64,000 nucleotides of DNA from Chamaelirium japonicum. Taxonomy: Eukaryota > Streptophyta > Magnoliopsida > Liliales > Melanthiaceae. The stretch is taken from assembly GCA_947650365.1 (NCBI GenBank), contig OX393549.1, positions 33,721,575 to 33,785,574 of the forward strand, given 5' to 3'. A program made the position numbers and the translations under genes. The stretch's first letter is position 1, and each line of letters starts with the position of its first letter. Positions 1,591 to 60,085 of this stretch are shown piece after piece. Under the pieces are notes generated by a model that searched no databases, was not told the DNA's origin, and saw only the letters and a list, made by a program, of their open reading frames with translations.

Positions 1591-1688
<98 letters not shown>

Positions 1689-2143
1689 ATGCATATATGA
1701 TTAAAATAGTAAAAAGTTTATACCTCTAGTCTAGATCTCCTTCACATATGAAAATAACTTGGCGTCAGGAGGTACCAAAGGCGTTGGAGTAGGCGAAGAG
1801 CTCTAACTTCGCTTTCGGAGAGCTCAAGCATCGTCTCTGAGTGGAGGTCAGGCGGTTAGTGCGTCAGATGAGTAGAGGTTGGGGGTATAAGAGGATCGGG
1901 GGGATCTCAGACCCTAGGAGGCTTCATGAGTTATAAGTGAAATCAAGTTCAGTTATGACTTCGATCCGACTTAATTTTAAGTGACTCCGACAAAAAAATA
2001 AACAAAAAAAACACCAGCCATATCCGAGCTGTATCCCTGCCGTTTCCATTTTTTTTCTTTTTATTTGGATGCTCCTCAGCCGTATCCGGTCCGTATCCGT
2101 GTCCGATACGGACACACGTCCTGTTTCGGAGTATTCATGCTTC
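1528..2143. mobile_element. TIR-bounded non-autonomous element with GAAGCATGGA ends
   Basis: The left end reads GAAGCATGGACATGGATAC and the right end is its imperfect inverse ending in CATGCTTCC. Both subterminal regions carry variants of GGATACGG/CCGTATCC. Inside are the AT dinucleotide tract and GC-richer unique sequence around 1760-1920. No transposase is present. The flanking duplication could not be fixed by eye, so the family is unassigned. Confidence 0.5.
1590..1684. repeat. (TA)n microsatellite
   Basis: About 95 bases of almost uninterrupted TA dinucleotides lie inside the TIR-bounded element. Confidence 0.98.
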
Positions 2144-2145
2144 CA

Positions 2146-3700: not shown

Positions 3701-3704
3701 AAAC

Positions 3705-5851: not shown

Positions 5852-5934
5852 CTAGTGCATGCCCGTGCCTGTCGGCACTGCAGCGGGCCGTCTTCGGCGG
5901 CAACACCCCCCCCCCCGGGCATCACCACCCCCAC

Positions 5935-6360
5935 CCGTCAACCCGACCCGAAGTTAGCGGGTTTGGGTTTGGTCTAAACGGGTTTGGGTCATAAACGGGT
6001 CGACCCGATTGACCCGTTTATTTAATGGGTCGGGTTTGTACTTATAACCCGATTGACCCCTTTAACAAATGGGCCGTGTCAACCTGACCCGACTCGACTC
6101 GATCCAACTCGAACCAACTCGAGCCAACCTGAACCAACCCGACCCAACCCGATCAAAACCGGCCCAATCCGACTTGTCTTGACCCAACCCGACAGGTTTA
6201 CATGGGTTCTGTTGACCCAACCCGAGCCGACACAACCAACCCGTTTAGTAAATGGGTTAAATGGGTCTATTCAGGTAAACCCGTTTATTAGGCAGGTCGG
6301 GTTTGGGTTTAAATTTTTTACCCATTTATTAAATCCGGAACTTGGACCCGACTCGAAATG
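5935..6360. repeat. degenerate ACCCG/CGGGT simple repeats (first block)
   Basis: Imperfect runs of ACCCG and ACCCGACCCG fill this part of the Helitron; similar blocks recur at about 6970-7240, 7610-7720 and 7720-8240. They generate Pro/Thr/Arg-rich open frames with no sign of real coding. Confidence 0.85.
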
Positions 6361-8949: not shown

Positions 8950-9484
8950 CTAATCCTCTCATGCACGATCACAGCCGTCCGTGAACCCAGTCCCGTCCGA
9001 GACCCCTCGCCATCCTTTTCTTCCTATTTTTTCCTACAATCACAGCCGTCCGTGAACCCAGTCTCTCCTGGTTCCATATTGTCCTAGTCAGCAGAAATCA
9101 TACACGATCTTAGCCGCTCGGATCCCTTGCATGTCTCTCACTAAGCCACACATGTATATGCACCGCTATCATTTTCTCTCTCTAAATCCCAGCCAATTAA
9201 ATGCATCACATCCATTACTTTCCATACTCGTTTTTCTCTCTCTTGCAAAACCAATGCCAACAAATCCGAGCGAGATTCATGCATGCATGCATGACCCTAT
9301 TGCGACTCCCCTCCCATATTTCTCTCTCTCTCTATCTAATCCTCTCATGCACGATCACAGCCGTCCGTGAACCCAGTCCCGTCCGAGACCCCTCGCCATC
9401 CTTTTCTTCCTATTTTTTCCTACAATCACAGCCGTCCGTGAACCCAGTCTCTCCTGGTTCCATATTGTCCTAGTCAGCAGAAAT
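8713..9484. repeat. 386-bp tandem duplication
   Basis: Positions 8713-9098 are repeated at 9099-9484 almost without change. A third, partial copy lies at about 6730-6960. The unit includes several direct CATG-rich stretches such as CATGCATGCATGCATG. Confidence 0.9.
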
Positions 9485-9540
9485 CATTTGGTTCCATATT
9501 GTCCTAGTCAGCACAAAACGGCCTTAGCATGTTATATAGA

Positions 9541-9811: not shown

Positions 9812-10173
9812 TAAGCGCACACGCTATATAAGTGCTGTATTGATTTGTTATAAATATATATTTTTTCAAGTGCGTTGTATAGTCCTTCAAGTCCTAGTCA
9901 TTGATTTGTATACGTCGACTTATAATGGGTGTTGGGCGGGCAAACAAAATAAAGCACACTCGTCAACTATCCACCCTGCCCGTAATATCTACGTTGCTAT
10001 TTGTGCCCCACAAATTACTAGCACTCTTAACTTTATAAATAAAGATATGCTAGATGAATCTTTGAAGCAACCTAGGCATATCCATATGCACACCGCCAGC
10101 TCCAGCACCGAAGATGATAATCCCATTCAACTCATCGCCGCCTCCTTCCCGCTCTGGCTATCATTGACATCAC

Positions 10174-10260
<87 letters not shown>

Positions 10261-10419
10261 TAATTTGTTATATTAGCTATGGTCCCTATAAGAATACATT
10301 CGGGTTTTTTTTGTTACAACATCTAGAGAATTACATAATACCTTAAAATAATAATCTAATGAGTTCTCATATTCCTGACGTCTTACGCTTCTAAGTGAGT
10401 AATTTCTCTTGGAAAGTTA
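9812..10419. other. non-coding stretch with a (CT)n(CA)n microsatellite
   Basis: No gene is recognised. A CT tract at about 10178-10216 passes directly into a CA tract to about 10255. The remainder shows nothing distinctive. Confidence 0.6.
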
Positions 10420-10695
10420 TCACGTCTGTAAACATAGTTTTCCATGAGACTTCCTTAGTGGGCAAACCAGTCAGCTATCCGATTTTCTTCCCTCAAAATG
10501 TGTGAGGCCTCACGCTACAAAAGCTTTGCCTCATAACCACACACTCCTTTCCAAAAGGACACCCGTGTCGCCTTTGACATCGATGAGAATTAGCAAGGAG
10601 TCACCCTCCACCCATAGCTTTCTCTTGTTTACCAAAGCTTTGGCCGCTCTAAGACCTTCCCGTAGGCCCCTTCCCTCCATCTGGAATATATATTT
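10420..10695 (-). pseudogene. LINE-type RNase H domain remnant
   Basis: The minus strand reads GLREGLRAAKALVNKRKLWV followed by EGDSLLI, the characteristic strand and catalytic Asp of the RNase H-like domain at the end of many plant LINE polyproteins. A later REENRIADWFAH segment (near 10490-10450) fits its C-terminal end. A stop interrupts the two parts. It is a dead retroelement fragment. Confidence 0.65.
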
Positions 10696-10779
10696 CATTT
10701 CTTAAGAAAGAATAGACATACGTCTTCATAAAAGGGTATATATTCATCAGGAGGGACTAGAGCTAAAAGAATGGATAAA

Positions 10780-11910
10780 AATATCGATCACGGACAAATT
10801 ATCGGCTGGCCGAAAAAACGGTTCCAATCAGGTGATACGAACCGGTCCATACCGGTGTGAATTGATTTTTGATTTCAAAAAAATTTGAAAAAATAACCAA
10901 AAAATCCAGAATAATCTAAAAACTGGTTTGTAATGTTTTTTTTATTAGTAAACTAGTTATAGGTATGAACCGATTTTTTTAAGTTATAAAGTCACTGTTT
11001 TCACTGTATGATTCTAAATTGTGGAATTTGATATAGTTATTAAATTGTATGTGTTAGATTAGCCTAGTATTATGCTTAGGGATTACAAAACATAATTCAT
11101 GACCATTGCACAAACATGAATTACACAACTAATACGACTACATGAGTCAAATTTTATAATTTCACATAATAAACACAAATTCATAGTCCTAAAACTCTTA
11201 ACATGTTTAGCAAATAAAATGCAAAAAAAATAAAATGAAAATAAAAAAACTCCAAATTTGCATGAACCGATCATGCAAATTTGGATATGATACTTATAGA
11301 TCTATAGATCTAAGCTTTGATGGTATAGATATGACCCATATCAACATTTTCACCACAATTATTTGGTTTATTTTTAAAAAAAATATAAAAAAAGAAAAGA
11401 AAATTGAAAAACCCCTAAATTTGCATAAATCGATCATGCAAATTTAGAAATGATGCTTATAGATCTAAGCTTTGATGGCATAGATCTAGCCCATTTCAAC
11501 AATTTCACCATAATTATTTGATTTTAAAAAAAAATACAACAAAACAAAAGAAAATTAAAAAATATTATGAAAACATACCTTCAAATGTGATTTTGATCTT
11601 GCAAATTCAAGGTTTTTGCTTCAAATCTTCCAAATCCAGCTAGTGTGGAGCTTCACCTCATGTGGGAATGAGGAAAGATGCCCAAAAAAATAAAACCGGA
11701 ATGAAAAAATCACCTAAAACCATGCTTCATACCCGGAACCGGTTCAAACCGGGCGGTTCGAACCGGTATTTGGTCGAACCAGCCGGTATTTACGCTATTT
11801 AATCCTCGCAACCGGTATCGACTGGATACCGGTGCGGTTCGGTCCGGTTTTCGGTTTGAACCGGCCGGTACGGTTCGTACTGGCTGGTATTTTGATCATT
11901 GGCTAAAAGT
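10780..11910. repeat. ACCGGT-rich repeat element with a ~174-bp internal duplication
   Basis: Both edges are dense in GAACCGGT/ACCGGTTC motifs (10840-10860 and 11730-11890), suggesting a foldback-like repeat. The middle holds two copies of a unit of about 174 bp (from about 11250 and 11425) with AAATTTGCATGAACCGATC and TAGATCTAAGCTTTGATGG. No protein is encoded. Exact ends and flanking duplication are not resolved. Confidence 0.5.
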
Positions 11911-12387
11911 CATCTCACAAAAAAGACTTATGTCAAACTTTCCATACGTAAAATCCAAAAAAGATTGATCAATCAGCTGTAACGCACAAGACCGAGCATT
12001 GGCCATCACATAGATGACACATAGGCAGATTGCAAATTATCTCGGTGCAGAAGTCTTCGTGCCGGATTGTATTTCTGATTATCAAAAAAAAAAAAAGATT
12101 GTGTTTTAGCTCTCTACGTACCACTCTGTATTCGGAGATGTTAGTTAATCTCACACTCGTATAGGGATAACAACGGTGTGATTTATAAACCGCACCGCAG
12201 AGTACAGTTTTGGTTTGCCAAAATATGAGGTAAAGCTTCCCAGTCCTATTCCCATCTTGTGGGCTCAAAATTCAGCCCAAGTTGGGCCCAAGTTGGGCCG
12301 ACTATCACCGTAACCGAAATCCCCATCTAAATTGTTGCGGTCAAACCCCTTCCAAATCCCTGCTCTCTCTCTCTCTCTCTCTCTCGG
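11911..12387. other. region upstream of the PPR gene, with CT tract
   Basis: A CT microsatellite at about 12363-12384 lies immediately before the start codon, a common feature of plant leaders. A GGTTTGCCAAAATA motif near 12210 recurs at about 60312. No other gene is visible. Confidence 0.5.
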
Positions 12388-14519
12388 ATGGCCTTCCCTA
12401 AGCCCCTCTTCTGCCACCTCAAATCCCTAAAACCATCCCGCATCCACCGCCACCCAGCTCTCTCCGGCACTCGCCGCCACCTCTCTTTCGCCACCCCGGA
12501 AGAGGCCGCCGCCGAGAGGCACCTCCGGAAGGTCCGCCTCGGAATCAATCCCCCTCTCTCCTCCCTCCGCCACTTGCAACCCCCTCCCCCGCCTCAGCAG
12601 AGGGCCTCTCCCACCCCCAGGAACCCCAACGTCACTAAGCTGCCGGAGCCCGCCTCCGCCGTCTCCGGTGCCCGACTCGTCCTCCACAATCGGATCCTCT
12701 CCCTCATCCGGGATGACGACCTCAACGAGGCCGTCCTCCTCGTCCGCCACTCAATCTACTCCAACTGCCGCCCCACCGTCTTCACCTGCAACGCCGTCCT
12801 CGCCGCCCTCCTCGGTCGCTCCCGCCACGCCGACCTCGTCGCCCTCCACCGCTTCGTCACCCAGGCCGGTATTGCCCCCAACGTCGTCACCCACAACCTC
12901 CTCCTGCAGGCCTACTGCTACCGCAAGCGGACCGACACCACCCTCGAGCATTACCGTGTCATCCTCCGTGACTCCCCCTTCACCCCCTCCCCCACCACCT
13001 ACCGAATCCTCATCAAGGGCCTCCTGAATTGACTCCAGGCTCGATGATGCGGTGAATCTCAAGGACGAGATGACTGCCAAGGCCTTCTGCCCAACCGACC
13101 CAACCGTTTACAACCTCCTCATGTCCGGGTTCATCGAGAATGGCAACCCGGACCAGGCATTGAACTTGTGCGAGGAGCTGAAAGTGAAGCTGGGTGGCGG
13201 GTTGATCATGGATGGCGTCGTTTACGGTAATCTCATGAAGGCGTATTTCAAGAAGGGAATGGACAGGGATGCGATGGAGTGTTATCATGGGGTTGTCGGA
13301 GAGGGGTCTAAGGTTAGGTTCAAGGCTGTGAGCTATAATTCCATGCTGGATGCATTGAGCAAGAATGGGAAATTCGATGAGGCACTGAGGTTGTTCGACC
13401 GGATGATGGGCGAGCATGACCCACCGAGAGGGCTAACCATGAACCTGGAAAGCTTCACCGTAATGGTGGATGGGTTTTGCTCTAATGGGAGGTTCGATGA
13501 GGCAATTGCCATTTTCAGGAAGATGGGCGACAAGAAATGCAGCCCGGACACGTTTTCTTACAACAATTTGATCGAGCACCTTGGCAAGGAGCACATGGTT
13601 GCCGAGGCCGAGGAGTTTTACAGAGAGATGGGTGAGCGTGGCTGTAACCCAGATGAGGCAACCTATGTTCTGTTGATGGAGGCTTGTTTTGGTGTGAGCA
13701 GGATAGATGATGCAACTGGGTACTTCAAGAAAATGGTTGAAGTGGAGCTGAGGCCGAGCACAGGAGCATACAATAAGGTTATGGGAGGGTTGGTGAATGT
13801 GGGAAGAGTTGATGAGGCAAAAATGTTCTTTGACCAGATGGTGGAAAAGGAGTCGAAGCCAAATGTGACAAGTTATGAGATGCTGCTGCAGGCATTCTGT
13901 GAGGCAGGGAGGTTGGATGATGCACTTAAGACATTCAAAGACAATGGATGAAGGGGTGGTTTCGAAACCAGAGATGAAGGAGCTTATGGAGGCAATGTTG
14001 AGGAAGGACGGGAGGGAGGAAGAGTTAGGAAAGCTATTTGAGGAAGTGGAGAGGGAGAAGGGGGAGGCTTTAGCTCGTGCGGCAGAGGAGAAAGCAAGAG
14101 CTGAGGCTCATGCCAGGGAAGAAGTTGAGAGGACAAAGGCGAAGGCTGCCGCAAGGGAGGCAGCTATTGTCAGAGCAAGTGCTGAAGCTGTCGAGGCTGT
14201 TTTGGGAAGAATTTCATCTGCAAGCAGTGAGGAAAGAAAGGAGGAATCTTTGGGTTTGGGTACTAATGCTGTTTATGAGGGTGTACTGGAAGCAGTGACA
14301 AGTTGTAGTGGCTCAGGTGAAGGAACAAAGGCTGGAGTGGATACTACTAATTGGGGGGCATTGGAAGAGGTGATAAATGAAAGTGGCTCGGGTGAAGAAA
14401 CAAAGGGTGGAGATGAAAATGGTTTTGAACGGGAAGCTACTAACATGAGTGCACTGAAAGAGGTGAGGAACAATAGCTGCTCAAGTGAAGAAACGTGCCA
14501 GGATGGAGATGCGTTGTGA
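12388..14519 (+). pseudogene. NUWA/EMB1796-like PPR protein gene with two frameshifts
   Basis: The product matches the plant NUWA (EMB1796, At3g49240) family, a P-type pentatricopeptide protein of mitochondria that supports C-to-U RNA editing complexes. The N-terminus MAFPKPLFCHLKSLKPSRIH then RRHLSFATPEEAAAERH is the organellar presequence and family signature. About ten PPR units follow (roughly residues 95-515; for example KCSPDTFSYNNLIEHL), then an Ala/Glu/Arg-rich coiled coil and acidic Gly/Ser repeats. The reading frame is broken by one extra T at 13029/13030 and one extra A near 13943. Skipping both gives 709 continuous codons, close to the family length. The lesions may be real or assembly errors. 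GC at third positions falls from 5' to 3'. Confidence 0.8.
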
Positions 14520-15790
14520 GCTCGTTGCTTCTCATGTGGGGAGCACTGAATGAAGTGCGAAATGATGGTCGCACAGGCGAAGAAACAAAACTTGGAGATG
14601 GAAAAGCTTCATGAGCCTGAGCTCCTCTGAGACAGGTTTCTTTATATATCTTTATTATTAGAAAAGCTTTTGTATCCACTGGAGTAGCTTTGAATGGACT
14701 CACCGATGTCGCTTTCCATGTAGTTGTTATCATGGAAGTGGTGAAGTTCGATTGAACATTTAGGATTACAAGCATTAGCAATTGATGGGTTAGGAGATGG
14801 CCGTCTTAGCTCACAGCACATGCGGTCATTTGCAATTGAGAATGATGGAAGATGTTGGAGTTCTGTTACCATTTTGTTGTAGCCGTGTCTTAGTTCTACC
14901 TCATACATGGCACACTAGTTTACGGTTTGTTCTTGTGCTTGCATTCGCAGTCTCAAAAGACTTTCACATCTCATCGTTAGGTGTGTTTTGTGCAAATCAT
15001 CCTTGTGTTCTATTCTGTTTCATTTGGAAGCTTGGTAGCCTGAGTAAAATTTACTATACGAATCTTTTATGGCTTGTGGATTCAGGAGCAAAAATCAGTT
15101 CAGGACAAAACCAGACTCCTTTCCTCTCCTCTTCTCTTTTCTTCTTCCTCCTTTCCTCATGAACTCGGATAGGGTTCCATGGTGCTGGCTTGAGAAAGGT
15201 TTGGTTACCTCTGATAGAAAGTCCGGCTCAAGGTGAAGAAAATCGTCTACCAAGGCCCACAAGACTATTTGAGATGAAAAGATTTTTCCATAAAAATACA
15301 CCCTTCAAGAATGGTAATCTCATCCATTGGATGGTTCAGACGAGACATCCCTTTTCGATGGAAAAGGAACATGGAGCGAAAAGTCATGATCAAAGGGGAG
15401 AGGGGAAGAAGTGAAGTCCAGGTGGGGATGGGGAGAGTTCCATACATTTGCGGCTATACAGCCTATATTACGCCATGAAGCTGGTGGCCTATCTGGTAAT
15501 AGGGTTGTCCATCAGTAGAATTTAGGACTTGTCTGGTCTTGTACTCAAGCCTGAACCTTTCGTGATTACTAGTTAGTTCCGAATAGTGGTCTTGTGTAGC
15601 ATACTATCTTCTGTCTGACTTGTGTAGTCGCGATATCTTGGCCTTGACTTGGTACTTCACTTGTGTTAAAGCCTAGACAATTTTCTTGAATCGTAGACCC
15701 ATAAATGACGAACCCAATCGAGTTCTGTGAAAAACGTAGGTACTATTTTACTACATGCGAAAAAGAAAGATGTAGGAGCTATTTTACTTC
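14520..15790. other. 3' flank of the PPR gene
   Basis: The acidic repeat of the PPR C-terminus continues beyond the stop in another frame to about 14620 (GEETKLGDGK). The rest, to 15790, contains small open frames with no recognisable similarity. Confidence 0.5.
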
Positions 15791-17526: not shown

Positions 17527-17874
17527 CTAACAGTGATTGGGTATACACACCCCGGAATCGGGGTTCTGCTGCTCCTTCCATATCCGGCCAGTGACCCGCA
17601 GCTTCAGCTCTTTCCTGTCACCCCCGGAGAAGAAGAGCGCCATGTTCCTCCGGTCGTGGCTGTCCCGTACCTTCCGGTGGCCGTCGCGGATGCTCCGGGG
17701 GGTGCCCTCCCATACGAGCTTCCTGCCGTTGGCCCCAACCTCAAGGCTGTAGCTGTAGTTCCTCGCCTCGTTCTCGTCTCCCATGAACCGGAGGAACGCC
17801 ATGTACACGGGGGCCCCCCCGAGCTGAAACGCCTCAAAGTGCAGGCAGAAGTACTGCCCAAAACAGTGGAAAAC
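17527..17874 (-). pseudogene. SINAT-type E3 ligase, last exon only
   Basis: The minus strand encodes VFHCFGQYFCLHFEAFQLGG, VYMAFLRFMGDENEARNY, RSIRDGHRKVRDSHD and NMALFFSGGDRKELKLRVTG: the C-terminal TRAF-like SINA domain of plant SEVEN IN ABSENTIA E3 ligases, which binds substrates and dimerises. A clean intron acceptor (TTTCTAG) precedes the exon at 17875 and the frame ends at a stop at 17527. A few residues normally found between DSHD and RNMALFF are missing. The RING and zinc-finger exons are not in this window; a CACTA terminus lies 89 bp upstream. It is either a broken gene or one with a very large intron. Confidence 0.8.
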
Positions 17875-17963
17875 CTAGAAAGAGAAATCGGACCAAAACC
17901 CAGTATTCAGTCACAAGCGGGTTGGTGTAATTTGAGGGGTCGATGCACAAATGAGTTTGACAA

Positions 17964-18480
17964 CACTACAAAAAAAACAGTTATTACCGACGGACACTAT
18001 CCGTCGGTAATATTAAAATTTCGTCGGTAATATTCTATAGCGACGGAAGGTATTTCCGTCGCTTGCTGTCGGGAAAGAAGGCGTCGGGGAAAACAATACG
18101 ACGGACCAAATATTACCGTCGGTAATAATAATTAATACCGACGGTAATATTAACGCCGTCGGTAATATTTAATCAATTTAAAACTAATATAATTTAGTAT
18201 TGCCGACGAAATATAAGAATCCGTCGGTAATATATAACCATTTTACCGACGGGTATATTTCATACTGTCGGTAATAATATATATATTACCGACACATATA
18301 TATATTACCCGTCGGTAATAATATATATATTACCGACCAAATTCATATAACCGTCGGTAATACTATATATATTACCGACGGATATTATATGCCGTCGGCA
18401 AATCATTAATAATTTAAAAAAAATAAAACTATTATTACCGACGGAATAATTAATTTCCGTCGGTAATAAGTATTTTTTTT
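17964..18480. repeat. CACTA left subterminal repeats
   Basis: More than fifteen copies of CCGTCGGTAATA or its inverse TATTACCGACGG occur, often as inverted pairs separated by short AT spacers. In this superfamily such motifs bind the accessory transposase protein. Confidence 0.9.
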
Positions 18481-18879
18481 TTTTAATAAATTTACCTAAA
18501 TAATGTTATTTAATTCCTGTGATTCAATACCACAATATATTACCACAATTTATCAAATATTACCATAATTTATAAAATATTACCTAAATTGATAAAAAAT
18601 TACAGCAAATTATCAAATATTACCACAGTTCTCGGCCGACAATTATAGACAAGAACAAAAAATAACCATATATTACAAAATAATATTTACACAATCCAGA
18701 ACTGAGAGATGATACATGTCCTATCTCAACCACCCCCGCCCGCCACCAACGCCGGTGCTCTCATCGATCCCCTGACGCCGCCCTATCTCAACCACGCCCG
18801 CCCACCACCAACGCTGGTGCTCTCATCGATCCCCTGACGCCGCCCTGCTCCTGCAATTAACATGTATTTGTTAAAAAAA
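18481..18879. other. AT-rich segment and ~62-bp GC-rich direct repeat
   Basis: Repeated ATATTACCACAATTTATCA-like units run from about 18530 to 18640. At about 18722-18850 a GC-rich unit CCTATCTCAACCAC to CCTGACGCCG is repeated twice. This may be a remnant of the transposase 3' region; no frame could be confirmed. Confidence 0.5.
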
Positions 18880-21800
18880 TGGTTTATATCTATAACTGAG
18901 TCTAAGCGTTAAAAAATGATAAGTTAGCGTGTTTCGATTTTGAAATAGGTTTGGATTCGATCCGATCGTAGAATTATCGGCATCCGATAATTCGAACTTG
19001 GAATTATTCCGTATTTCAGACTTGCGAGCGGGTTCTAATTGGATATTTGACCAATTTACGCTCCGATTCACCGATTTAGAGTCTAAGTGTTGAAAAATCA
19101 TAACTTAGCGTGTTTCGGATATCAAATAGCTAGGTTTGGATTCGATCGGATCGTCATCGGATCGGCATTCGATAATTCGAACTTGGAATTATTCCGAATT
19201 TCGGACTTGCGAGCGGGTTCTAATTGGATATTTGACCAATTTACGCTCCGATTCACCGATTTAGAGTCTAAGTGTTGGAAAATCATAAGTTAGCGTGTTT
19301 CGGATATAAAATAGGTTTGGATTCGATAGGATCGTCATCGGCTCGGCATCCGATAATTCGAACTTGGAATTATTCCGTATTTCGGACTTGCGAGCGGGTT
19401 CTAATTAGATATTTGACCAATTTACGCTCCGATTCACCGATTTAGAGTCTAAGTGTTGGAAAATCATAAGTTAGCGTGTTTCGGATATAAAATAGGTTTG
19501 GATTCGATCGGATCGTCATCGGCTCGGCATCCGATAATTCGAACTTGGAATTATTCCGTATTTCGGACTTGCGAGCGGGTTCTAATTGGATATTTGACCA
19601 ATTTACGCTCCGATTCACCGATTTAGAGTTTAAGTGTTGGAAAATCATAAGTTAGCGTGTTTCGGATATGAAATAGGTTTGGATTCGATCCGATCGTCAT
19701 CGGATAGGCATCCGGTAATTCGAAGTTGGAATTATTCCGTATTTCGGACTTGCGAGCGGGTTCTAATTGGATATTTGACCAATTTACGCTCCGATTCACC
19801 GATTTAGAGTCTAAGTGTTGGAAAATCATAAGTTAGCGTGTTTCGGATATAAAATAGGTTTGGATTCGATCGGATCGTCATCGGCTCGGCATCCGATAAT
19901 TCGAACTTGGAATTATTCCGTATTTCGGACTTGCGAGCGGGTTCTAATTGGATATTTGACCAATTTACGCTCCGATTCACCGATTTAGAGTCTAAGTGTT
20001 GGAAAATCATAAGTTAGCGTGTTTCGGATATAAAATAGGTTTGGATTCGATTGGATCGTCATCGGCTCGGCATCCGATAATTCGAACTTGGAATTATTCC
20101 GTATTTCGGACTTGCGAGCGGGTTCTAATTGGATATTTGACCAATTTACGCTCCGATTCACCGATTTAGAGTCTAAGTGTTGGAAAATCATAAGTTAGCG
20201 TGTTTCGGATATAAAATAGGTTTGGATTCGATCGGATCGTCATCGGCTCGGCATCCGATAATTCGAACTTGGAATTATTCCGTATTTCAGACTTGCGAGC
20301 GGGTTCTAATTGGATATTTGACCAATTTACGCTCCGATTCACCGATTTAGAGTCTAAGTGTTGGAAAATCATAAGTTAGCGTGTTTCGGATATAAAATAG
20401 GTTTGGATTCGATTGGATCGTCATCGGCTCGGCATCCGATAATTCGAACTTGGAATTATTCCGTATTTCGGACTTGCGAGCGGGTTCTAATTGGATATTT
20501 GACCAATTTACGCTCCGATTCACCGATTTAGAGTCTAAGTGTTGGAAAATCATAAGTTAGCGTGTTTCGGATATAAAATAGGTTTGGATTCGATTGGATC
20601 GTCATCGGCTCGGCATCCGATAATTCGAACTTGGAATTATTCCGTATTTCGGACTTGCGAGCGGGTTCTAATTGGATATTTGACCAATTTACGCTCCGAT
20701 TCGCCGATTTAGAGTCTAAGTGTTGGAAAATCATAAGTTAGCGTGTTTCGGATATAAAATAGGTTTGGATTCGATCGGATCATCATCGGATCGGCATTCG
20801 ATAATTCGAACTTGGAATTATTCCGAATTTCGGACTTGCGAGTGGGTTCTAATTGGATATTTGACCAATTTACGCTCCGATTCACCGATTTAGAGTCTAA
20901 GTGTTGGAAAATCATAAGTTTTCGGATATAAAATAGGTTTGGATTCGATCGGATCGTCATCGGCTCGGCATCCGATAATTCGAACTTGGAATTATTCCGT
21001 ATTTCGGACTTGCGAGTGGGTTCTAATTGGATATTTGACCAATGTACGCTCCGATTCACCGATTTAGAGTCTAAGTGTTGGAAAATCATAAGTTAGCGTG
21101 TTTCGAATATGAAATAGGTTTGGATTCGATCCGATCGTCATCGGATCGGCATCCGGTAATTCGAAGTTGGAATTATTCCGTATTTCGAACTTGCGAGCGG
21201 GTTCTAATTGGATATTTGACCAATTTACGCTCCGATTCACCGATTTAGAGTCTAAGTGTTGGAAAATCATAAGTTAGCGTGTTTCGGATATAAAATAGGT
21301 TTGGATTCGATCGGATCGTCATCGGCTCGGCATCCGATAATTCGAACTTGGAATTATTCCGTATTTCGGACTTGCGAGCGGGTTCTAATTGGATATTTGA
21401 CCAATTTACGCTCCGATTCACCGATTTAGAGTCTAAGTGTTGGAAAATCATAAGTTAGCGTGTTTCGGATATGAAATAGGTTTGGATTCGATCCGATCGT
21501 CATCGGATCGGCATCCGGTAATTCGAAGTTGGAATTATTCCGTATTTCGGACTTGCGAGCGGGTTCTAATTGGATATTTGACCAATTTACGCTCCGATTC
21601 ACCGATTTAGAGTCTAAGTGTTGGAAAATCATAAGTTAGCGTGTTTCGGATATAAAATAGGTTTGGATTCGATTAGATCGTCATCGGCTCGGCATCCGAT
21701 AATTCGAACTTGGAATTATTCCGTATTTCGGACTTGCGAGCGGGTTCTAATTGGATATTTGACCAATTTACGCTCCGATTCACCGATTTAGAGTCTAAGT

Positions 21801-22445
21801 GTTGGAAAATCATAAGTTAGCGTGTTTCGGATATAAAATAGGTTTGGATTCGATCGGATCGTCATCGGCTCGGCATCCGATAATTCGAACTTGGAATTAT
21901 TCCGTATTTCGGACTTGCGAGCGGGTTCTAATTGGATATTTGACCAATTTACGCTCCGATTCACCGATTTAGAGTCTAAGTGTTGGAAAATCATAAGTTA
22001 GCGTGTTTCGGATATAAAATAGGTTTGGATTCGATCGGATCGTCATCGGATCAGCATTCGATAATTCGAACTTGGAATTATTCCGAATTTTGGACTTGCG
22101 AGTGGGTTCTAATTGGATATTTGACCAATTTACGCTCCGATTCACCGATTTAGAGTCTAAGTGTTGGAAAATCATAAGTTTTCGGATATAAAATAGGTTT
22201 GGATTCGATCGGATCGTCATCGGCTCGGCATCCGATAATTCGAACTTGGAATTATTCCGTATTTCGGACTTGCGAGTGGGTTCTAATTGGATATTTGACC
22301 AATTTACGCTCCGATTCACCGATTTAGAGTCTAAGTGTTGGAAAATCATAAGTTAGCGTGTTTCGGATATGAGATAGGTTTGGATTCGATCCGATCGTCA
22401 TCGGATCGGCATCCGGTAATTCGAAGTTGAAATTATTCCGTATTT
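18880..22445. repeat. 181-bp tandem satellite array, about 20 units
   Basis: Units of 181 bp (start GATTTAGAGTCTAAGTG) repeat about twenty times with very high similarity. Two units are 174 bp because AGCGTGT is missing (near 20920 and 22180). Variant types V (GCATTCGATAATTC), S (short) and G (GGTAATTCGAAGTTGG) occur in the order V-S-G at 20705 and again at 21965, 1260 bp apart, which equals six full units plus one short unit. The period is not a multiple of three, so the repeated 68-residue open frames are artefacts. The array sits between the last recognisable transposase exon and the left terminus. Confidence 0.95.
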
Positions 22446-22582
22446 CGGACCTTTGCAAGTAATTTGATTTCGTCACTTACGTTTGATTTCTCTACCTGTT
22501 TCAGATTATGATTAATTAATATATATCATATAAGTATTAGGAAGCTTATTATAGTTTTAATGAAGTTAATATGAATGTTTAC

Positions 22583-25409
22583 CATCTCTTTAAACCATTC
22601 AGCAAATTTGTTCATGTGCTTCCGCTCAATGTTATTCACACCAGATCTCGTGATCTCCTCTACGTGCTGACTATAAACATAAAACATAATGCTCAGGCAT
22701 TTAGATGAATTAAGAATATTATTTAATGCAGTATGCTAAGTTTTTAAAAAAAACTTACTCAATATATGGAAAGAGTTCCATGCAATTCTGTAACACATAG
22801 AAGTGAGCCTGATTTATTTTAGCATTGGTAAGGAAGTACGCGCGGCCTCCTGCTATCGGACGACCGGTGGAGGAAAAAATAGACAAGGTTGCTTCAGGGT
22901 GTATCTGACCTCCATCAAAATTTCTTTCCGGCCGATTGAATCGGGTCTCGATACCACTAAGATACCTTGAACAGAATGTTAAACATTCTTCCGCGATATA
23001 CCCTTCGGCAATAGAACCTTCTGGATAATCCTTATTCCGTACGTATGACTTGAGTGTACGTAAATACCTGATAAATAAATACTTACATTATTTACGTCCA
23101 ATATATAACGGTCAAAAACAAAAATAAACTAACGATGATTGCGTCAATATATAGATTTAGTAAATGACTCACCTCTCAATAAAATACATCCATCTGTATT
23201 GAACTGGTCCACCAAGCTTATCCTCTGCTGCTAGATGAATAAGGTGGTGCATCATAATAACGAATAATGCTGGCGGAAATATTCTCTCGAGCTTGCAAAG
23301 AGTCAGAGCTATTTGGTTCTCAAGTTTTTCGAGGATGTCTAACCGCAATGCTTTCGAGCATAACTCCTTAAAGAAAATGCAAAGTTCAATTATGGCTTCA
23401 GATATGTTTTCTGGCATGAGGTCAAGTACTGCAATAGGCATAAGTTGTTGTAATAGCACATGACAATCATGACTCTTTAGACCCGAAACCTTCCGTTCGT
23501 CAAACTTGACAGAACGAGATATGTTTGATGAATAGCCGTCCGGAAATCTTATGTCCATGACAAACTGACAAAAGGCACTCTTCTCCTTTGCATTCATCGT
23601 ATAGCATGCAGCTGGCACTTTATACACATCCCCAGATTTTATTGGGTGCAGATTTTTCCTAACGCCCATATCTTCCAGGTCGAAACGAGCGTTTAAATTA
23701 TCCTTTGTTTTGTCTGCTATGTTCATCATTGTTCCGAGGATAATTTCACACACATTCTTCTCTATATGCATAACGTCAAGGTTGTGCCGCAACAAATTGC
23801 TGCTCCAATATGGCAATTCGAAAAAAATACTTTTCTTCGTCCACCCTAAGTATTTTTCTCTAGATGTCCCTTTCCTTTTCTTCCCTGGTATTTTTCCGAA
23901 TGTCACATGCGGAAGGTGCTGTAACTGTTGCAATACATCGACACCAGACAACTTTTTCGATGGAGGTCTTCTATCTGGATTGCCGTCAAATGATTTTTTC
24001 AACAAGCACCACCTATGATTAATTGGTAGGAATCTACGATGACCCAAGTAACATTGTTTTCTACTACTTTTTAGTTGTCGTGACGTAGTTTCCTCGTTAC
24101 ATACCGGGCAAGCCATCTTACCCTTGGTGCTCCATCCGGATAGATTATCATATGCTGGAAAGTCATTAATTGTCCATATCAAAGCGGCACGCAATCGAAA
24201 GTTGTTCCCAGTGTATGCATCATATGTTTCAATGCCGATTTCCCACATATCCTTCAACTCCTCAACTAAAGGTTGCATATATACATCAATTTCATTTCCA
24301 GGAGCACGAGGACCAGGAATAATCATAAACAATATAAAATTAGTCTGTTTCATGCACACCCACGGTGGTAAATTATATGGAATGAGGACGACCGACCATG
24401 TGCTGTAAGAAACACTCATGTTCCCAAATGGATTCATCCCGTCACTTGCTAGACCAAGTCTAACGTTTCGTGAATCAGAAGCAAACTGCTCATGAAGTTG
24501 GTCAAAATTCTTCCATGCCTCTGAGTCTGCTGGATGCCTCATTACACCATCATCAACACGTTGTTCCTGATGCCATCGCATATCTTCAGCTGTCTTTTCT
24601 GACATAAATAGTCGTTGCAGTCTCGGCTTCAATGGAAAATAACGTAGGGATTTATCTGGGATTTTTTTACCATTCTCTTTCCATCTGCATTGACCACATA
24701 TTGGACAATGGGTCTTTGAGGCATTATCCTTCCAGTACAGTATGCAATCATTTTTGCATGCATCTATTTTAATGTAATCAAGGCCAAGGTCACGAATTAT
24801 TTTCTGACACTGGTTGTAATCAGAAGGCAGTGTGTGACCATCAGGGAGAGCATCGGTAAGCAGCTCAAGTAGCATCTTAAAGGATTTAATGCTCCAACCA
24901 TTTAGACATTTTATGTGTAGTAGTTTAACGATGAATGACAATGTCGTGAATTTATTACAACCAGGGTATAGCTTCTGAGATGCATTATTAAGAATTCTTG
25001 TATACCTATCTGTATCCGCATCTATCCGATCTTCACCATGTATAGCGGGTTCATCATCCATGACATCTTCAAATATATTTGGCAATCCTAAGGCAGCATC
25101 TATTAACCCATGCATGTCATCTATTTCTGTTTCAGTTTCACTAGATATTTGAGGTGGAACATAAGTTTCCTCTGGCATCTTCCATGTTCTATAACCTGGT
25201 TCTATACCAAATTGAAATAAATCAGCAATTACATCATCCCGGGATTGATATTGGATAGTTCTGTGGCGTTTACAAGGACAACGAATCATATCCCCAAGTG
25301 TTTCTCTGCTAAATAGATAGTTGACAAAATGATTGACCCCATTCCTATAATCCGCACTGGCTCTATTACTGTCAACCCAACTCATATCCATAGCGTAAGG
25401 TACCTTCAA
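22583..25409 (-). CDS. TNP2-type CACTA transposase, 3'-truncated
   Basis: This is the DDE-type transposase of En/Spm elements, which cuts at CACTA ends. Exon 1 (25409-23173) starts with a transposase-associated domain (MDMSWVDSNRASADYRNG, then CPCKRHRTI), followed by the Transposase_21 core: CPICGQCRWKENGKKIPDKS, LRYFPLKPRLQRLF, MSEKTAEDMRWH, NPFGNMSVSYSTW, GPRAPGNEIDVYMQPL, NDFPAYDNLSGWSTKGK and LLRHNLDVMHIEKN. The splice sites give exon 2 (23067-22759; a DUF4218-like segment with PEGSIAEGYIAEECLTF) and exon 3 (22670-22583; HVEEITRSGVNNIERKHM). The introns have GT/AG borders and join in frame. After exon 3 the satellite array begins and no C-terminal exon is visible. The reading frames are intact. 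Confidence 0.9.
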
Positions 25410-28049
25410 TTAAAATATAAAGATTAATAAATATTAGAGATAGAACCATATGCGATATATCAGCCAAAGTTTAAACAGGAAAAATAGCAAAAGACAAATT
25501 GATGTATACTGCAAAATTACAAGGCCTAAGAAATCAAGTAACAACAAAATTCAAACATTAATTCAATAATTCAGTGCAGTTGGAATCATGCTGAGTCAAT
25601 GTCAAATAGAGAGGATTTACAAGTGTTATATGAGGGTCGGAATAGGTATGGAATGAGAGAGAGAGAGGTGTAGGAATAGGTTTGGAACGAAAGAGAAGGC
25701 CAATAAGGATATAAATACAGTACCGGGTAATATACTAAGTTGTAAACCAAATATTTGTTTAAACATTAAATAAATACAAATATCCTAAAAGTCAATTAAA
25801 AATAGGAATATTTATCAGTCATATGATGTGACTAATAAATTTAAGTTGAACTAGGCTAAACACAGGTGAACCAGACTCAACAGGTGGGTTGCACTACTGA
25901 CTGAAGTGGGCTAAACTACTCCAAAGAGGTGGGCTGCACACACACCATGCACTGCTCGCTGTGATACCAGGACTGAAGTTTCTTGACAGGTTCCTCCCTT
26001 ACCAACCTAATCTTGATGTGACAAGACTTGGATAACGATGTTGATTGCTTTTTAAGTTGTACAAAATTGTGTCCACGAAGTCCAAAAGTTACCCTCAAGG
26101 ATTGTTTTGAAGATAATTTGTTCCTTGTTTTGGAATAGGTATGGATATTGTCCACTCTAATTTGTAGAGAATAAAAATTCCTACAATGAATGACCTTTTA
26201 TTCAAAGTTCCCATCATTTTTGGTTGTCCATTAGCATAAGGAGAAAGGAATTTGACCCCAAAGAATCAGATCCGAGCCAACATTGGAGGATTCAGCTTTA
26301 TTAAAGCAAACAAACCAACATATATTAACATTAAAAACATGACCACCAAGTGTTATTGTATATCCTACCTTTCCATTTATCCTCAGAGCCAAATTCTACT
26401 TGGGAGAGAGAGAAGGTACATTAGCATGACCTACTGGGTTGCCTTGCCTTAAATGGCATAATGGTCTGTCACAGAGCAGGATTACTGAATAAAATTTCAG
26501 ATTTTATCTTTCTTCTTCATCTCTATCTTATTCTATCCCTGTTAGGCTAAGACTTTTGTAAAATCAGTATGGATTGAGATATCAGAGGAGCTTAAATCTG
26601 TTGTTAAATTTTACAAAAGCTTCATTTGGCCTGAGAGTTGAGATAATTTGCTTCTCCTGCTACATTGTCGAGCCAAAATTCTATTTTGACTATATCACCT
26701 CAGCTTCAGCTTCATCTTTATGCATTTTCCACCTAATCCTAAAGTCTCACTTCTTGGGAATATTGCTCTAGCTATTTTGAGCTACATGGAGGATATTTTG
26801 TATATCAGCTAATGCATTATGTGTGTGATTTAATCGAAGAATAAAAATAGTACTGTGATGCTTAAAAGGTAAATTCATTAGGCACATAGGCCATGTGGCC
26901 AGTAATACATAGGCCATGCAAACCAAAATCAGACCTCCATGTGCAGCTTAACTAGGCAGAAAATAACTTGACAGTTAATTACTGCATTATCATTGCAAGT
27001 CCATTACATGAAACATGGCATCTATCCATAGGGAGATGAAAAGGACTTGCATAACTTATTATATGGAGTTGGCATAGATTGGGTGGCATGTCATGCTTTT
27101 TTGAGAAAACAGAAATGACAAAAAAAATTTCTTAAATTTTTTTTTAAAATTTCTTAAAAATTTCGACCACGACCATTACAGACTCAGCCAGAGACTCATC
27201 TTACACCCCATAATATGAATGTCATAGAGTATGAAATCTATAAGTCATTATTGAGTATTTAGGCTCATCTTATACCCATATTAGTGCATGTTATAGCTTA
27301 TCAAATCTAGCAGATATTAGAAAGTATCTGGAAATCAACTGCCTTATGCTCAACTATAGGATAATAGGTACAAAATTAATTATCAAATATGCAAGAACTC
27401 ATGTACATGTGCGGAACTTTCAACAATCTGTAAGATTAATTAAACAAGCATAGATGAATTCTATATGTTTTTAACTCCTGCAGTAAAACGTAATTGTTCA
27501 TTGAAGAGATCTGTGAAAAAAGAGGTGCAAATCGTTTCACTAAGTAATGTATCTTCTATTTGTCTTTCAGTTATGAGAAAAACAAAATAAAGCAACAAAT
27601 TAGCAAAGGCATCAAGGTGTATGCATACAGCTTCAAGCCTTCATGAAGGCTTAAAGATCAATAGTATTATGCAAATCTTCAAGCCTTGTTCAAACAATGA
27701 TCCTTCTTTGTGGATCTCAATTCCAAATAGGGATCAAGGTGTAGAAAGTTTTTTTTTTTTTTAAAGAGAGATTTTAGATGTTTAAAGCTAGCAAAAAAAA
27801 AAAAAAGAAGAAGCAAATGGGGTTGATCACCAATCCATACATACCTCAAGCGGCAGGCGAAGGGTCCGTCACGAGCAATGAACAATCGGCAGCCGGGACA
27901 GATCATCGACGATGGGAATTTTGTAGCTAGGGTTTTGGCCTCGTTGCTGCTCGATGGAGCTGGAGACGATCGTGTGCAGTTCGCGCGCATGCAAAACTCC
28001 CAAAATTGTAAATTTTCGCGCGGCCTTAATTTCCAGATCTGGCGCCCTT
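25410..28049. other. CACTA region upstream of TNP2, no gene recognised
   Basis: The sequence is AT-rich, with short open frames of no recognised family. It should hold the transposase promoter and leader, and in complete elements of this superfamily may hold a second gene, but I could not identify one. A run of T followed by A-rich tracts lies at about 27750-27810. Confidence 0.5.
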
Positions 28050-28353
28050 GATTTGCGGCGGAGCACAACTGCAGCCGATTCCCCTATCTTTTGCGGGGGA
28101 GCACAACCGGCCGCCGATTTCATCCTACAATTCAGGCGAAGCATACCTGGCCGCCGAATTCCTAATTTCATCTGCGGCGGAGGCAAGTTTGCCGCCGAAT
28201 TCCGTCTCCAATTGAGGCGGATCGACGGTAGCCGCCGGCTTTCCATCATTCTCTGCGGCGGAGCCGAGAGGGCCGCCGATTCTGACTTCATTTGGTGCGG
28301 AGCTGCTATGGCCGCCGATTCCGCCGCCGATTCCGCTCGCTTCTGTTGTAGTG
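28050..28353. repeat. CACTA right subterminal repeats (GCCGCCGATTCC type)
   Basis: About eight copies of GCCGCCGAATTCC/GCCGCCGATT and CTGCGGCGGAG alternate up to the terminal GTTGTAGTG. The motif is only loosely similar to the CCGTCGGTAATA motif of the left end. Confidence 0.8.
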
Positions 28354-29480: not shown

Positions 29481-29509
29481 GTGGTCTACATAAAACTTTT
29501 TAAGCTTTC

Positions 29510-31585
29510 TGCCCCCTAATCTGTCTAACCCTAACCCTCTAAACCCTCCTAACACTAACCTACCCCTAACCCTCTCCTAACCTCCTAACGCTAACCACTA
29601 GTACCCTAATCCTAATAACCCCTAAACGTGCCCTAACCCTCATAACGCCAGCCCTAACCCTCCTAACGCCACCCCTAACCCCTAAACCTACGCGCCACGC
29701 CTAACCACCCTACACCCCCTAACCCCTAACCCCAGCCGGCCCCTACGCCCCCTAACCCCTTAGGACCATACGCGCCCTAACCCCTAACCACCCCAACCCC
29801 GTAACCCCTAACCCCAGCCACCCCCTAACCCCCAGCTCCCTACGCCCCCTAACCCTAACCCACGCTTAACCCCTAAACCTACCCTAACCCCCTCCTAACC
29901 CCTATGCCCTACCCCTACCCTCGCTACCCTAACCCCAGCCACAGCCACCCCCCCCCCCCCCCCCTAATCCTAACCCCTACGCCCTACGCCTACCCTCCCT
30001 CGCTACCCTAACCCCAGCCACCCCCTAACTCCCCCTACTCCTACCTCCTAACCCCCCACTTCACCCCCTAACCCCCCCTAACCTAACCCACGCTACCCCT
30101 ACCTCCTAACCCCTAAACCTACCCTAACCCCCCTCAATCCTAACCCTCTACGCCTACGCCCTAACCCTAACCCACCCTACCTCCTAACCTACGCTAACCC
30201 CCCTCAATCCAAACCCTAAACCCCCTAACCCCTAATCCCTAACCCCTAACCCACCTAACCCTAACCCCAACCCCCACCTAACCCCCCCCCCCTAATCCTA
30301 ACCCCTAAACCTACCCTAACCCCCTCCTAACCCCTATGCCCTACCCCTACCCTCGCTACCCTAACCCCAGCCACAGCCACCCCCCGCCCCCCCCCCCCCC
30401 CCTAATCCTAACCCCTACGCCCTACGCCTACCCTCGCTCGCTAACCTAACCCCAGCCACCAGCCACCCCCTAACTCCCCCTACTCCTACCTCGTAACCCC
30501 CCACTACACCCCCTAACCCCCCCTAACCTAACCCACCCTACCCCTACCTCCTAACCCTAAACCTACCCCTAACCCCCCTCAATCCTAACCCTCTACGCCT
30601 ACCCCCTAACCCTAACCCACCCTACCTCCTAACCTACGCTAACCCCCCTCAATCCAAACCCTAAACCCCCTAACGCCTAACCCCTAACCCACCTAACCCT
30701 AACCCTAACCCTAACACCCACCTAACCCCCCCCCCCCCCCCCTAATCCTAACCCCAGCCACCAGCCACCCCCTAACCCACCCTACCCCTACCTCCTAACC
30801 CCTAAATCTACCCTAAACCTACCCTAACCCCTCTACGCCTACCCCCTAACCCTAACCCACCCTACCTCCTAACCCCTAAACCTACCCTAACCCCCCTCAA
30901 TCCAAACCCTAAACCCTAACCCCTAACCCTAACCCCCCCCCCCCCCCCCCCACCCACCCCTCTAATCCTAACCCCTACGCCCTACGCCTATCCTCCCTCG
31001 CTACCCTAACCCCAGCCACCAGCCACCCCCTAACCCCCCCTACGCCTACCTCCTAACCCCCCACTACACGCCCCCCTAACCCTAACCCACCCTACCCCTA
31101 CCTCCTAACCCCTAAACCTACCCTAACCCACCTAACCCTAACCCCCTACCCTTAACCCTAACCCTACCTAAACCCACCCCCTAACCCTAACCCTAAACCT
31201 ACCCCATAACCCTAACCCTAACCCTAACCCTCGCCCTCGCCCTACCTAAACCTACTACCCCCTAACCCTCCCTTCTAACCCCCTAAACCCTAACCCTACC
31301 CTAACCCTAACCCTAAACCTACCCCCTAACCCCTAAACCTACCCCTAAACCCTTCTAACCTCCTAACCCACTCCTAACCCTTAACCCCTAACCCTAACCC
31401 TAACCTCTCTAACCTCCTAAACCCTCATAACTAATCCTAACCCACCCTTAACCCTAACCCCGCCCCCCCCTAAACCCTAACCCTAACCCTAACCCTCCCC
31501 CTCCCCCTACCTAAACCCACGCCAACCTACGCCCTTAACCCTAACCCCTATCCCTAACCCTAACCAACCCTAACCCTAAACACCA
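29510..31585. repeat. interstitial telomere-like block 1 (degenerate CCCTAA)
   Basis: About 2.1 kb of degenerate CCCTAA/CCCTAAC units occur with the C-rich strand on top. Clean short runs of CCCTAA are seen near 30700, 31190-31230 and 31480, along with variable C runs up to about 20 bases and longer duplicated blocks (for example 29880-30180 resembles 30300-30640). A terminal telomere would be more regular, so this is an old or error-prone internal block. Confidence 0.9.
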
Positions 31586-31716: not shown

Positions 31717-33850
31717 TCAGTGAGAACACACCTTACGTCCTACGACAGAGATTCCGGACATCTGCGAAACAAGCATACAAGGGATGAAATGTTCTAGACT
31801 AATATTCACAACGAGGGCCTTGGCTGAGAGTCTCCTATCAAAATCAAGGTACACTGGCATCGTTAGCATCTTGAGCTTTGGAATGTTGGTAAGCCTCTGT
31901 CTTTTAGTCCATCTGCTTGAAGTCTCCACAATTCCAGATTTTGCAACTACAAGTTACAAAAAGTTTGAATTAATATCGACTTGAGTACCCAAATTCAGCT
32001 TCTTAAACAATTAACAATTTTAACAAGGACTACTTCTAACCCTTATTGAGGAACTCCTGCAAGAGCTTGCACTTTGATCCGAAGCTCCCCGACGAGTAGG
32101 CAAGGTATCTTTCGTTTGTGAGTCGAATGCAGGGTTGTCGATGAGGGCATTGACAGTGTGGGCCTTGAGACACATAGCTGGTGATCAGGTTCGTAACATA
32201 CTCCACATTGCTGCCGCCCTTTATCGTTGCGATCCCATTTACGAAGCTAACCTGAATAAACACGATCACAAGTTCTTGAGGCCATTCGAGAAAGTAACTA
32301 TGCATCACATTGCTCGAAAATAACCTGCCGGAACAAGCCTCCCACCGATCATTAACTTTCTCTGCGATCCTGATTTGCATCAACCATAACGAGAAAAACT
32401 TTGTCAAATCAATAAGAATTTAGAAACGATCAGCACAGAATCTGCTGAGTTCCAATCAAACCTCGGAATGGAGTCGGGCCTCGATTTGGAAGCGGTTTGG
32501 TTGAATGAGATCTTTATCAAAAGAAATGCTCAAAAACGCTTTCTCATAATTTCCTTAAAAGTTGGGAACAAAAAAGAGATCCGAAGAATTAAATAACAAA
32601 AATACATAGAAAAGAATTGTAGAAAAGAGGATCTAATCCCTAAAACCCCTATCAAGATCAGGGTAGTATTCAGTGATTTTTCTAAAAAATAATCAGAATG
32701 AAGAACCCAAAACTAGAAAGTGGAAAAATTAATGAGCAATACAGAAGCAATAGTCGAGAACAGAAAAGAGATAAAAAGAATTACAGAACAAAAATAAAAA
32801 TAAATTCTCATAAAACCCTATCTCCACAGATTTGAGAGACTTCATAAATGCATAACCCAAAACTCTGAATTTTTCTGTGATTTTTCTAAATAATGATCAG
32901 AATGAAGAACAGAGAAGAGATCAAAATTAATTACATAACAAAAATAACACAAATCTATAGAAAGGTAATGTAGACAAGAAAATCTAATCCAATCCATACA
33001 GCCCCCAACAAGATCAAGTTCACAAGAGAGGATTAGGGTATTCGGTGATTTTTATAAATAATGATCAGATCCACCCAAGTTATCTAAAAGAAACAAGAAA
33101 AAAATTTGGGAAAAAAGAATTTCAAGAGCATCAAATCAAGATCTAAGGTGCCATCGGCGGTCTGGATCACGAACCCGGGGGAGAAGATGTTGGAGAAGCT
33201 TGGCCCCGTAGCCGTTCCGCCCGCCGGTCGTCTTCTTGGTGAGGAGATGGCAGAAGACCCCCTCCTCCTGGTGGATCTCGATGGGGACTCCCTCCATCCC
33301 CGTTGTTGTAGACATTGCTGCAGTTGGCCTCGGGATCGATGCCGACCTTGACGGAATCCATGGAGGGATCCCGCTGCTTGTTGTCGGCGGCGTTGACGAG
33401 GATCTCGTCGAAGACCTTGTAGAGGCCCGGGAGGTAGGTGACGGTGCGGTGGACCATCTCGCCGCCCTCGTAGACCCAGAGGATCTGGGTGTGCCTCTCG
33501 ACGGAGCCGATGTAGGTGTCGGGGCGGAGGAGGACATCGCTCCAGCTGGGTCTTCTTCTTGGCCGCGGTCGTCGCGGCGATGCAGTCGGCGGCGGCGGCG
33601 TTGTGGGCGCTGCTGGACTGGAGGCGGACACAGAGATTGTGTTTGTGAGTGAGACTGGAGGGGGTTTTAATGAGACACTGCTGGACTGGAAGGGGGGCTT
33701 TAATGAGGCGAGCACAACGGTCGAAATTTCAGTCGAGGGGATTTGAATGGAGGGTGGAGGAGGTTCGCGATGGGAGATCGGACGGCTGAGATTGCTCCAG
33801 GTGGATTTTGTTTGAATTTGCTATGAAATTACATAACGATATTTGTCTCG
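31717..33850 (-). pseudogene. TOP2: TOP2 copy C
   Basis: This is a minus-strand topoisomerase II fragment. The ATPase exon (about 33715-33140) reads LLRPDTYIGSVERHTQILWV, YKVFDEILVNAADNKQRDPS and NNGDGG, then carries the same 4-bp frameshift insertion as copies A (second unit) and B. The next exon is reduced to about 50 bp (near 32500-32460). A further exon (32370-32040) keeps VSFVNGIATIKGGSNVEYV and ALIDNPAFDS but lacks the 24 bases for the RNHLWVFV segment. The TOPRIM exon (about 31930-31840) is scrambled and the next (MSGISVVGR) has lost bases. The upstream flank lacks the MULE-like insertion of copies B and D. Confidence 0.85.

Positions 33851-58811: not shown

Positions 58812-58909
<98 letters not shown>

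Positions 58910-60049: not shown

Positions 60050-60085
<36 letters not shown>

Follow-up and report, generated by a model that had tools for sequence, protein, structure and literature searches.

A CACTA-borne satellite array has already been published from Chenopodium quinoa, where scaffold 3389 holds a 16,523-bp CACTA-like element with a Transposase_21 domain, a coding part at positions 1676 to 9409 and, near its 3′ end, a 5,550-bp array (10098 to 15648) of 32.5 monomers of 171 bp (PMC8978399). According to the available part of that account, the array occurs in other elements too, with monomer identities of 97.7 to 98.8%, and gives a dispersed signal in fluorescence in situ hybridization. 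In other Chenopodium species, the Jozin CACTA (CficCl-61-40) carries a minisatellite of ∼40 bp that starts inside tnp2 (PMC7320549), and in Lathyrus, Ogre retrotransposons have short tandem arrays in their 3′ part, some of which have grown into true satellites (PMC7004042). A review tabulates cases, Jozin included, in which tandem repeats arose from mobile elements (PMC9659126). The present analysis concerns a 64,000-nucleotide stretch of Chamaelirium japonicum DNA (the window; C1:33721575-33785574), in which a tandem array of 181-bp units adjoins a CACTA transposase gene, TNP2. The array is very probably an inherited, built-in part of one CACTA family (family A), of which the window copy is broken and joined to a second family (family B); the transposase genes of the two families are referred to as TNP2-A and TNP2-B.

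The likeness to C. quinoa is one of architecture, with a satellite-sized array inside a CACTA element, found in multiple elements. In the available text of that account, each C. quinoa element has one array and no second, inverted one is mentioned (PMC8978399), whereas family A elements often hold two; here there are also 1,438 left junctions, 49,331 unit matches and, in the window, a truncated chimera. The additions to the published case are the second inverted array and the copy number. Paired inverted arrays were not reported in the available parts of the accounts cited above, although no literature search was aimed at this point. A literature search on CACTA elements with a 181-bp tandem repeat yielded a single paper, which by its title concerns gene silencing in pepper fruit. 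In Jozin, as in the window, a tandem array directly adjoins an incomplete tnp2, but the ∼40-bp Jozin monomer comes from tnp2 (PMC7320549), whereas the unit described here has no convincing match to TNP2-A and its contact with TNP2-B is a one-off. Ogre arrays likewise occupy a fixed place in a mobile element and are dispersed with it; however, Ogre is a retrotransposon and not a CACTA element, and expansion into long free arrays was demonstrated for some Ogre arrays (PMC7004042) but not for the unit described here.

In the window, the family A sequence begins with a CACTA left terminus (17964 to 18480, plus strand; CACTACAAAAAAAACAG...) with subterminal CCGTCGG/CCGACGG repeats at 17987 to 18457. 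A 417-bp link (18481 to 18897, plus strand), in which Tandem Repeats Finder located a 62-bp unit present twice (18720 to 18846), connects the subterminal repeats to the array (18898 to 22450, plus strand). To compare this arrangement with other copies, seven loci were used, all from 100 listed unit matches, around which 14 stretches were fetched. The left terminus of the window was found beside the array at all seven (82 to 99.8% identity), and at all seven the link leads into the array (87 to 99.8% identity). The array starts at the identical place in six of the loci, with small changes there in L042. Its first unit is the same diverged variant, recognizable in all seven other copies, and the array was therefore present in the ancestor of the copies examined. 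All seven loci thus hold an array of 3 to 8 kb with a CACTA left end. The sizes of this first array (array 1) are 4.4, 4.0, 3.2, 7.4, 7.9, 5.6, and 7.3 kb, where 7.4, 7.9, and 7.3 kb were taken from end coordinates, with parts of the interior known as unit matches alone.

In five of the seven loci, a second array (array 2) of 1.1 to 1.6 kb, inverted relative to array 1, follows a spacer of ∼2 kb (one of these sizes was joined from two loci). Four other between-array spacers are 94 to 99% alike to that of L038, and the L038 spacer sequence is also present in L043 (98.6%) and L034 (93.3%), both without array 2. To the right of array 2 in L038, frames matching DUF4216, DUF4218, Transposase_21 (E value, 7.7e−101), and Transpos_assoc were identified on the minus strand. 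A TNP2 match was obtained at five of the seven array loci, with none in the fetched parts of the elements at 3.30 and 7.24 Mb. A second gene of the TNP1/TnpA type is a feature of CACTA elements, and two open reading frames in the spacer between the L038 arrays (L038:1207-1620 and 2383-2682, minus strand) may be exons of such a gene; in Pfam, one had weak coiled-coil matches below the cutoff and the other none, and no transposase match was seen.

All seven family A left ends start with CACTA. Five read CACTACAAAAAAAACAG; L042 differs from this by one base and L033 by two. The four right ends examined all end in TTGTAGTG, and weaker matches to the subterminal repeats were found at the other end in L035, L039, L041, and L043. 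Matching 3-bp target duplications flank all four elements with both ends covered, coverage of the other three loci stopping short of the right end. These elements lie at C1:4566684-4585339 (ACT), C1:5067226-5082965 (TCT), C1:3295965-3305182 (ACA), and C1:7235504-7247591 (TGG), the latter two being those without a TNP2 match in the fetched parts. The four are CACTA insertions with the array inside. Family A has CACTA termini, a 3-bp duplication, subterminal repeats, and TNP2, and belongs to the CACTA (En/Spm) elements. Given the left end beside the array at seven of seven loci and the target duplications in four of four elements, family A carries and disperses the array, and since complete elements make these duplications, each insertion plants 18 to 44 array 1 units.

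The window copy is a broken family A element fused to a piece of the unrelated family B. A preliminary description of the window, made from its letters, had set the array inside a transposon, between TNP2 and the CACTA left end. That geography stands, as does the location of the array in CACTA sequence; a single element spanning both the left end and TNP2 does not, since two families are involved. The description implied one intact element from 17964 to 28353 with TNP2 and the array both native. Both ends indeed start with CACTACAA, and the orientation of TNP2 would suit an element read from right to left. Against this, the subterminal repeats differ between the two ends, and the flanks do not match. 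CAA (17961 to 17963), the candidate target-site duplication of the A left end, has no partner, the right part of A being missing, and the right end at 28353 is followed by ATT; the left and right ends thus do not bound a single simple insertion. The right terminus (27851 to 28353, plus strand; ...TTCTGTTGTAGTG), with GC-rich subterminal repeats, belongs to family B by comparison with other copies and was fixed independently by flank homology, as from 28353 the flank matches a repeat copy at 56169 (82% over 56 bp). The window locus therefore lacks both a pair of ends from one family and a matching target duplication.

The transposase gene points the same way. TNP2-B (22451 to 25409, minus strand) has matches to Transposase_21 (E value, 4.6e−102), DUF4218, and Transpos_assoc in Pfam, with a first-exon frame from 25409 to 23169 and, as judged by eye, additional exon pieces extending to the edge of the array; the region from exon 1 to the right terminus (25410 to 27850, minus strand) was taken as the family B 5′ region by position. 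At the five array loci with a match, exon 1 of TNP2 is only 64 to 66% identical to that of the window, and a 3′ exon piece (139 to 174 bp) at array loci is 72 to 75% identical. Family B comprises at least 42 rows from 40 scored of 199 candidates, the window included, and in the seven B copies fetched, from seven contigs, no array was found beside TNP2-B in the 2.1 to 2.2 kb next to the position of the joint. In one of them, L065, the frame that is broken in the window continues (...NVSDEIKLLAKGPHREAKIYD...) into DUF4216 (E value, 1.6e−20); the window copy has therefore lost the DUF4216 domain along with the 3′ part of the gene. At the joint itself (22449 to 22451), the interior of an array unit, reading to ...TTTCGGAC, is fused to a TNP2-B coding exon from CCTTTGCAAG, with one C assignable to either side. 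Searched with up to three mismatches, the joint pattern had one match in the genome, the window itself, and its control none, so there is no sign of the fused element multiplying. Taken together, an intact single element is scarcely credible. The motif GCAAAGG at the joint (22450) could suggest that the unit was derived from TNP2; however, plain sequence occupies this place in all seven B copies, the L065 frame runs straight through it into DUF4216, and no convincing match was found elsewhere in element A.

The fusion may have arisen when an element that was broken, or whose repair was incomplete, underwent end joining, with one base shared at the joint. Alternatively, the joint or the array length could stem from misassembly of near-identical arrays, a concern raised by a joint that is unique in the assembly and sits at the edge of a high-copy array. 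However, a misjoin between array copies would not yield a joint from mid-unit into TNP2-B, the array family itself is present at seven further loci, and an array of 3.5 kb is short for current long reads. Misassembly is accordingly regarded as highly unlikely.

The distribution of the unit was assessed across the whole assembly (1,518,659,071 bases in 3,253 contigs) with a 31-nucleotide piece of the unit, allowing up to three mismatches, so that units with more mismatches escape it. There were 49,331 matches (24,522 forward and 24,809 reverse) and none with the reversed-sequence control; at 181 bp each, they amount to ∼8.9 Mb, or 0.6% of the assembly. A 32-nucleotide pattern across the link/array junction had 1,438 matches (735 and 703 on the two strands; control, 0), and the 100 of these junctions that were listed, all on C1, span 0.5 to 107 Mb. 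The unit is thus not private to the window, and its description as satellite-like, made beforehand from the letters, was borne out; the repeat is numerous elsewhere in the genome. The ratio of the two counts is ∼34 unit matches per left junction, near the content of single elements, and a free satellite is therefore not needed to explain the number of units. The idea that CACTA elements are here a seed for new satellites gained no support, as this ratio fits the elements alone, the rest of the genome having been counted only.

The reverse order of events, in which a CACTA element took up a free centromeric or heterochromatic satellite and subsequently dispersed it, has a precedent in C. quinoa: in the available part of that account, capture is considered the likeliest origin of the 171-bp CACTA array (PMC8978399). 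The lack of a convincing relation between the unit and the rest of element A would suit capture, as would an array of 182-bp units, ∼80% alike, near one element. However, no free array was identified, the ∼34 unit matches per junction fit element arrays alone, and the same diverged first unit in all seven copies places the array in their ancestor, a position with which an earlier capture is still compatible. Capture of a free satellite is therefore considered rather unlikely.

Several observations weigh against the array as a built-in part of family A. The seven loci were the first listed, all within the initial 7.3 Mb of C1, and so are not a random sample. The whole-genome searches consist of counts and a first listing, with which long free arrays elsewhere would be compatible. 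The 182-bp array (L033:1-2413; 13.3 copies, ∼80% like the unit) is not accompanied by its own family A left end in the stretch covered, and two of the seven loci (L033/L034 and L043/L044) are without array 2 in the stretch covered. An origin of the unit in the rest of element A also found no support, matches there reaching at most 42 bases with E values of 0.07 or worse. In addition, three junctions in the same orientation (C1:89270952, 89274281, and 89277790) lie 3.3 to 3.5 kb apart and may represent a tandem of modules made of the left link and array. As a separate observation, the L033:1-2413 array, which lies upstream of another family A element, appears to be an older relative of the 181-bp unit.

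The internal structure of the window array was resolved unit by unit. Tandem Repeats Finder reported a period of 181, 19.7 copies, 95% matches, 1% indels, and a score of 6475. Cutting at a recurring start motif gave 20 units, of which sixteen measure 181 bp, one 185 bp, two (U12 and U19) 174 bp, and the last, a cut unit, 124 bp. The consensus is 181 bp long, and four units are identical to it. Leaving the cut unit aside, U1 and U2 are farthest from the consensus, at 17 and 10 columns, respectively (four of the 10 in U2 are an insertion). A unit of 181 bp would be compatible with a nucleosome-like length. A coding function is ruled out, since a run of three units contains stop codons in each of its six reading frames.

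Among the units, the order V-S-G occurs twice, in U11 to U13 (20712 to 21247, plus strand) and in U18 to U20 (21972 to 22450, plus strand; U20 is stopped at 124 bp by the A/B joint), with starts 1,260 bp apart. The S type is defined by a 7-bp deletion common to U12 and U19 only (2/20 units), each flanked by V and G. When unit order was shuffled 200,000 times, both S units fell between V and G in 120; as the labels were defined after the pattern had been seen, this figure is a guide rather than a clean test. The triplet copies differ by 3, 0, and 4 (first 128 columns, deletion scored as one event), and the mean difference among units of the array is 6.0, with gaps handled otherwise than in the triplet comparison. 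At lag 7, the mean unit difference was 4.62 versus 5.92 in shuffles (fraction, 0.027, uncorrected), the lowest of 15 lags; lag 2 was the second lowest (0.037). The triplet differences and the lag-7 result argue for a duplicated block, yet two full seven-unit blocks are not there: only three distinctive units recur, the block exists as ∼1.4 copies, the second stops at the joint, and the lag-7 signal is weak. A higher-order repeat, with at least two complete multi-unit blocks whose copies are closer than neighboring units, is thus absent, and the V-S-G recurrence is one partial segmental duplication. In the preliminary description, the ∼20 near-identical units, the exact 1,260-bp spacing, and the duplication of blocks as well as single units had all been read correctly; the seven-unit higher-order block proved to be this single segmental duplication, V-S-G occurring once in two sister copies as far as covered.

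The sister copies allow the order of events to be traced. The left module of the window differs from those of L036, L039, L044, and L037 at 3, 3, 5, and 8 of 934 sites, respectively, and from those of L031, L042, and L033 at 61/865, 63/888, and 84/863 sites. Rows outside 100 to 200 bp were dropped before the analyses of unit order and transitions. In L036 and L044, the unit types keep the order of window units 1 to 15 with small gains and losses of units: an edge unit, V with a 4-bp insertion, two plain units, G, plain, t, further units to a second t, (plain), V, S, G, plain, and G. The S unit is present once in the whole L036 array (18 units) and once in 26 typed units of L044, where a further 0.6 kb is without the S motif and ∼2.1 kb lies outside coverage. 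The arrays of L037 and L039 are partly covered and cannot decide on V-S-G; their unit alignments were unused. On the simplest reading of these unit orders, the array came with the element, and the window lineage would have lost one plain unit and acquired its second triplet when some seven units were duplicated, all of this recently.

At the loci examined, array 1 of the family A elements lies between the left terminus and the 2-kb spacer, often with array 2, inverted, between the spacer and TNP2-A, and close sisters differ in array length and unit order. As the unit order suggests, transposition would scatter the array, and its length could change through unequal exchange, slippage, or a template switch while the gap left by excision is repaired. 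The array would then be passenger DNA, of no use to the host and of little use to the element.

The base composition of the arrays raises a different possibility, namely that they are functional in the element as a CpG-rich, paired, inverted module for protein binding, silencing, or transcription control. The ratio of observed to expected CpG was 2.09 for the array, 2.11 for array 2 of L038, and 3.12 for the left end; lower values were obtained for the link (1.31), the B right end (1.25), TNP2-A (1.01), the spacer (0.89), and TNP2-B (0.69). In five of seven loci the two arrays have opposite orientations, and a transcript spanning both might therefore fold back on itself. On the other side, two of seven loci are without array 2 in the stretch covered and unit number varies widely. 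CpG richness can also stem from a young age and from the founding sequence. Transitions at CpG are only modestly raised. Over 181 units, excluding the diverged L033 array, C>T changes numbered 72/2841 at CpG versus 40/2831 elsewhere, and G>A changes 74/2843 versus 93/4832. With an excess this modest, the idea of strong CpG decay pointing to prolonged methylation was discarded; such an excess fits a young array and would not be proof of an unmethylated one. A functional role of the arrays within the element is considered doubtful. It is equally improbable, at the strength of the present sequences, that the paired inverted CpG-rich arrays around the spacer would act in cis, as a fold-back source of small RNA, a protein-binding platform, or a boundary, and would have been part of the success of family A.

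The window holds further genes and repeats, its gene content including TNP2, PPR, and Sina-type genes. The last exon of a Sina/SIAH-type gene (17527 to 17874, minus strand; limits by frame reading; Sina_TRAF, 3.3e−30) lies ∼90 bp from the family A left end, with the upstream exons of that gene expected on the far side of the insertion. Copies of a gene fragment with the translation RPDTYIGSV...LWVYEGGEMVHRPVTY..., presumably resembling the start of a type II topoisomerase, were found at 4645 to 5712 and 33084 to 33820 (minus strand) and at 38098 to 39381 and 42686 to 43273 (plus strand); with several copies, this gene piece seems to have been multiplied. Long degenerate CCCTAA-like arrays occupy 29500 to 31580, together with a 445-bp repeat (29867 to 30736), and 57390 to 58550, far from the contig end (the window starts at 33.7 Mb of C1). 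The latter stretch is adjoined by long degenerate GTGG/TGTG-rich repeats (58570 to 60700). A 386-bp tandem duplication with a 99% match (8708 to 9487) and AT-rich degenerate tandem repeats of the AGAGAAAATATT type extending over 2.2 kb (52722 to 54979) were also identified.

The locus and its relatives provide a case, at base resolution, of a DNA transposon family that carries and scatters a satellite-sized tandem repeat, and the sister copies let the gain of a block of units be followed in order. The window also serves as a warning that an array adjoining a transposase gene may belong to another element, as here two families are fused. Should the paired arrays prove to be a cis-acting module, family A would simultaneously be the carrier of a dispersed satellite of ∼50,000 units.

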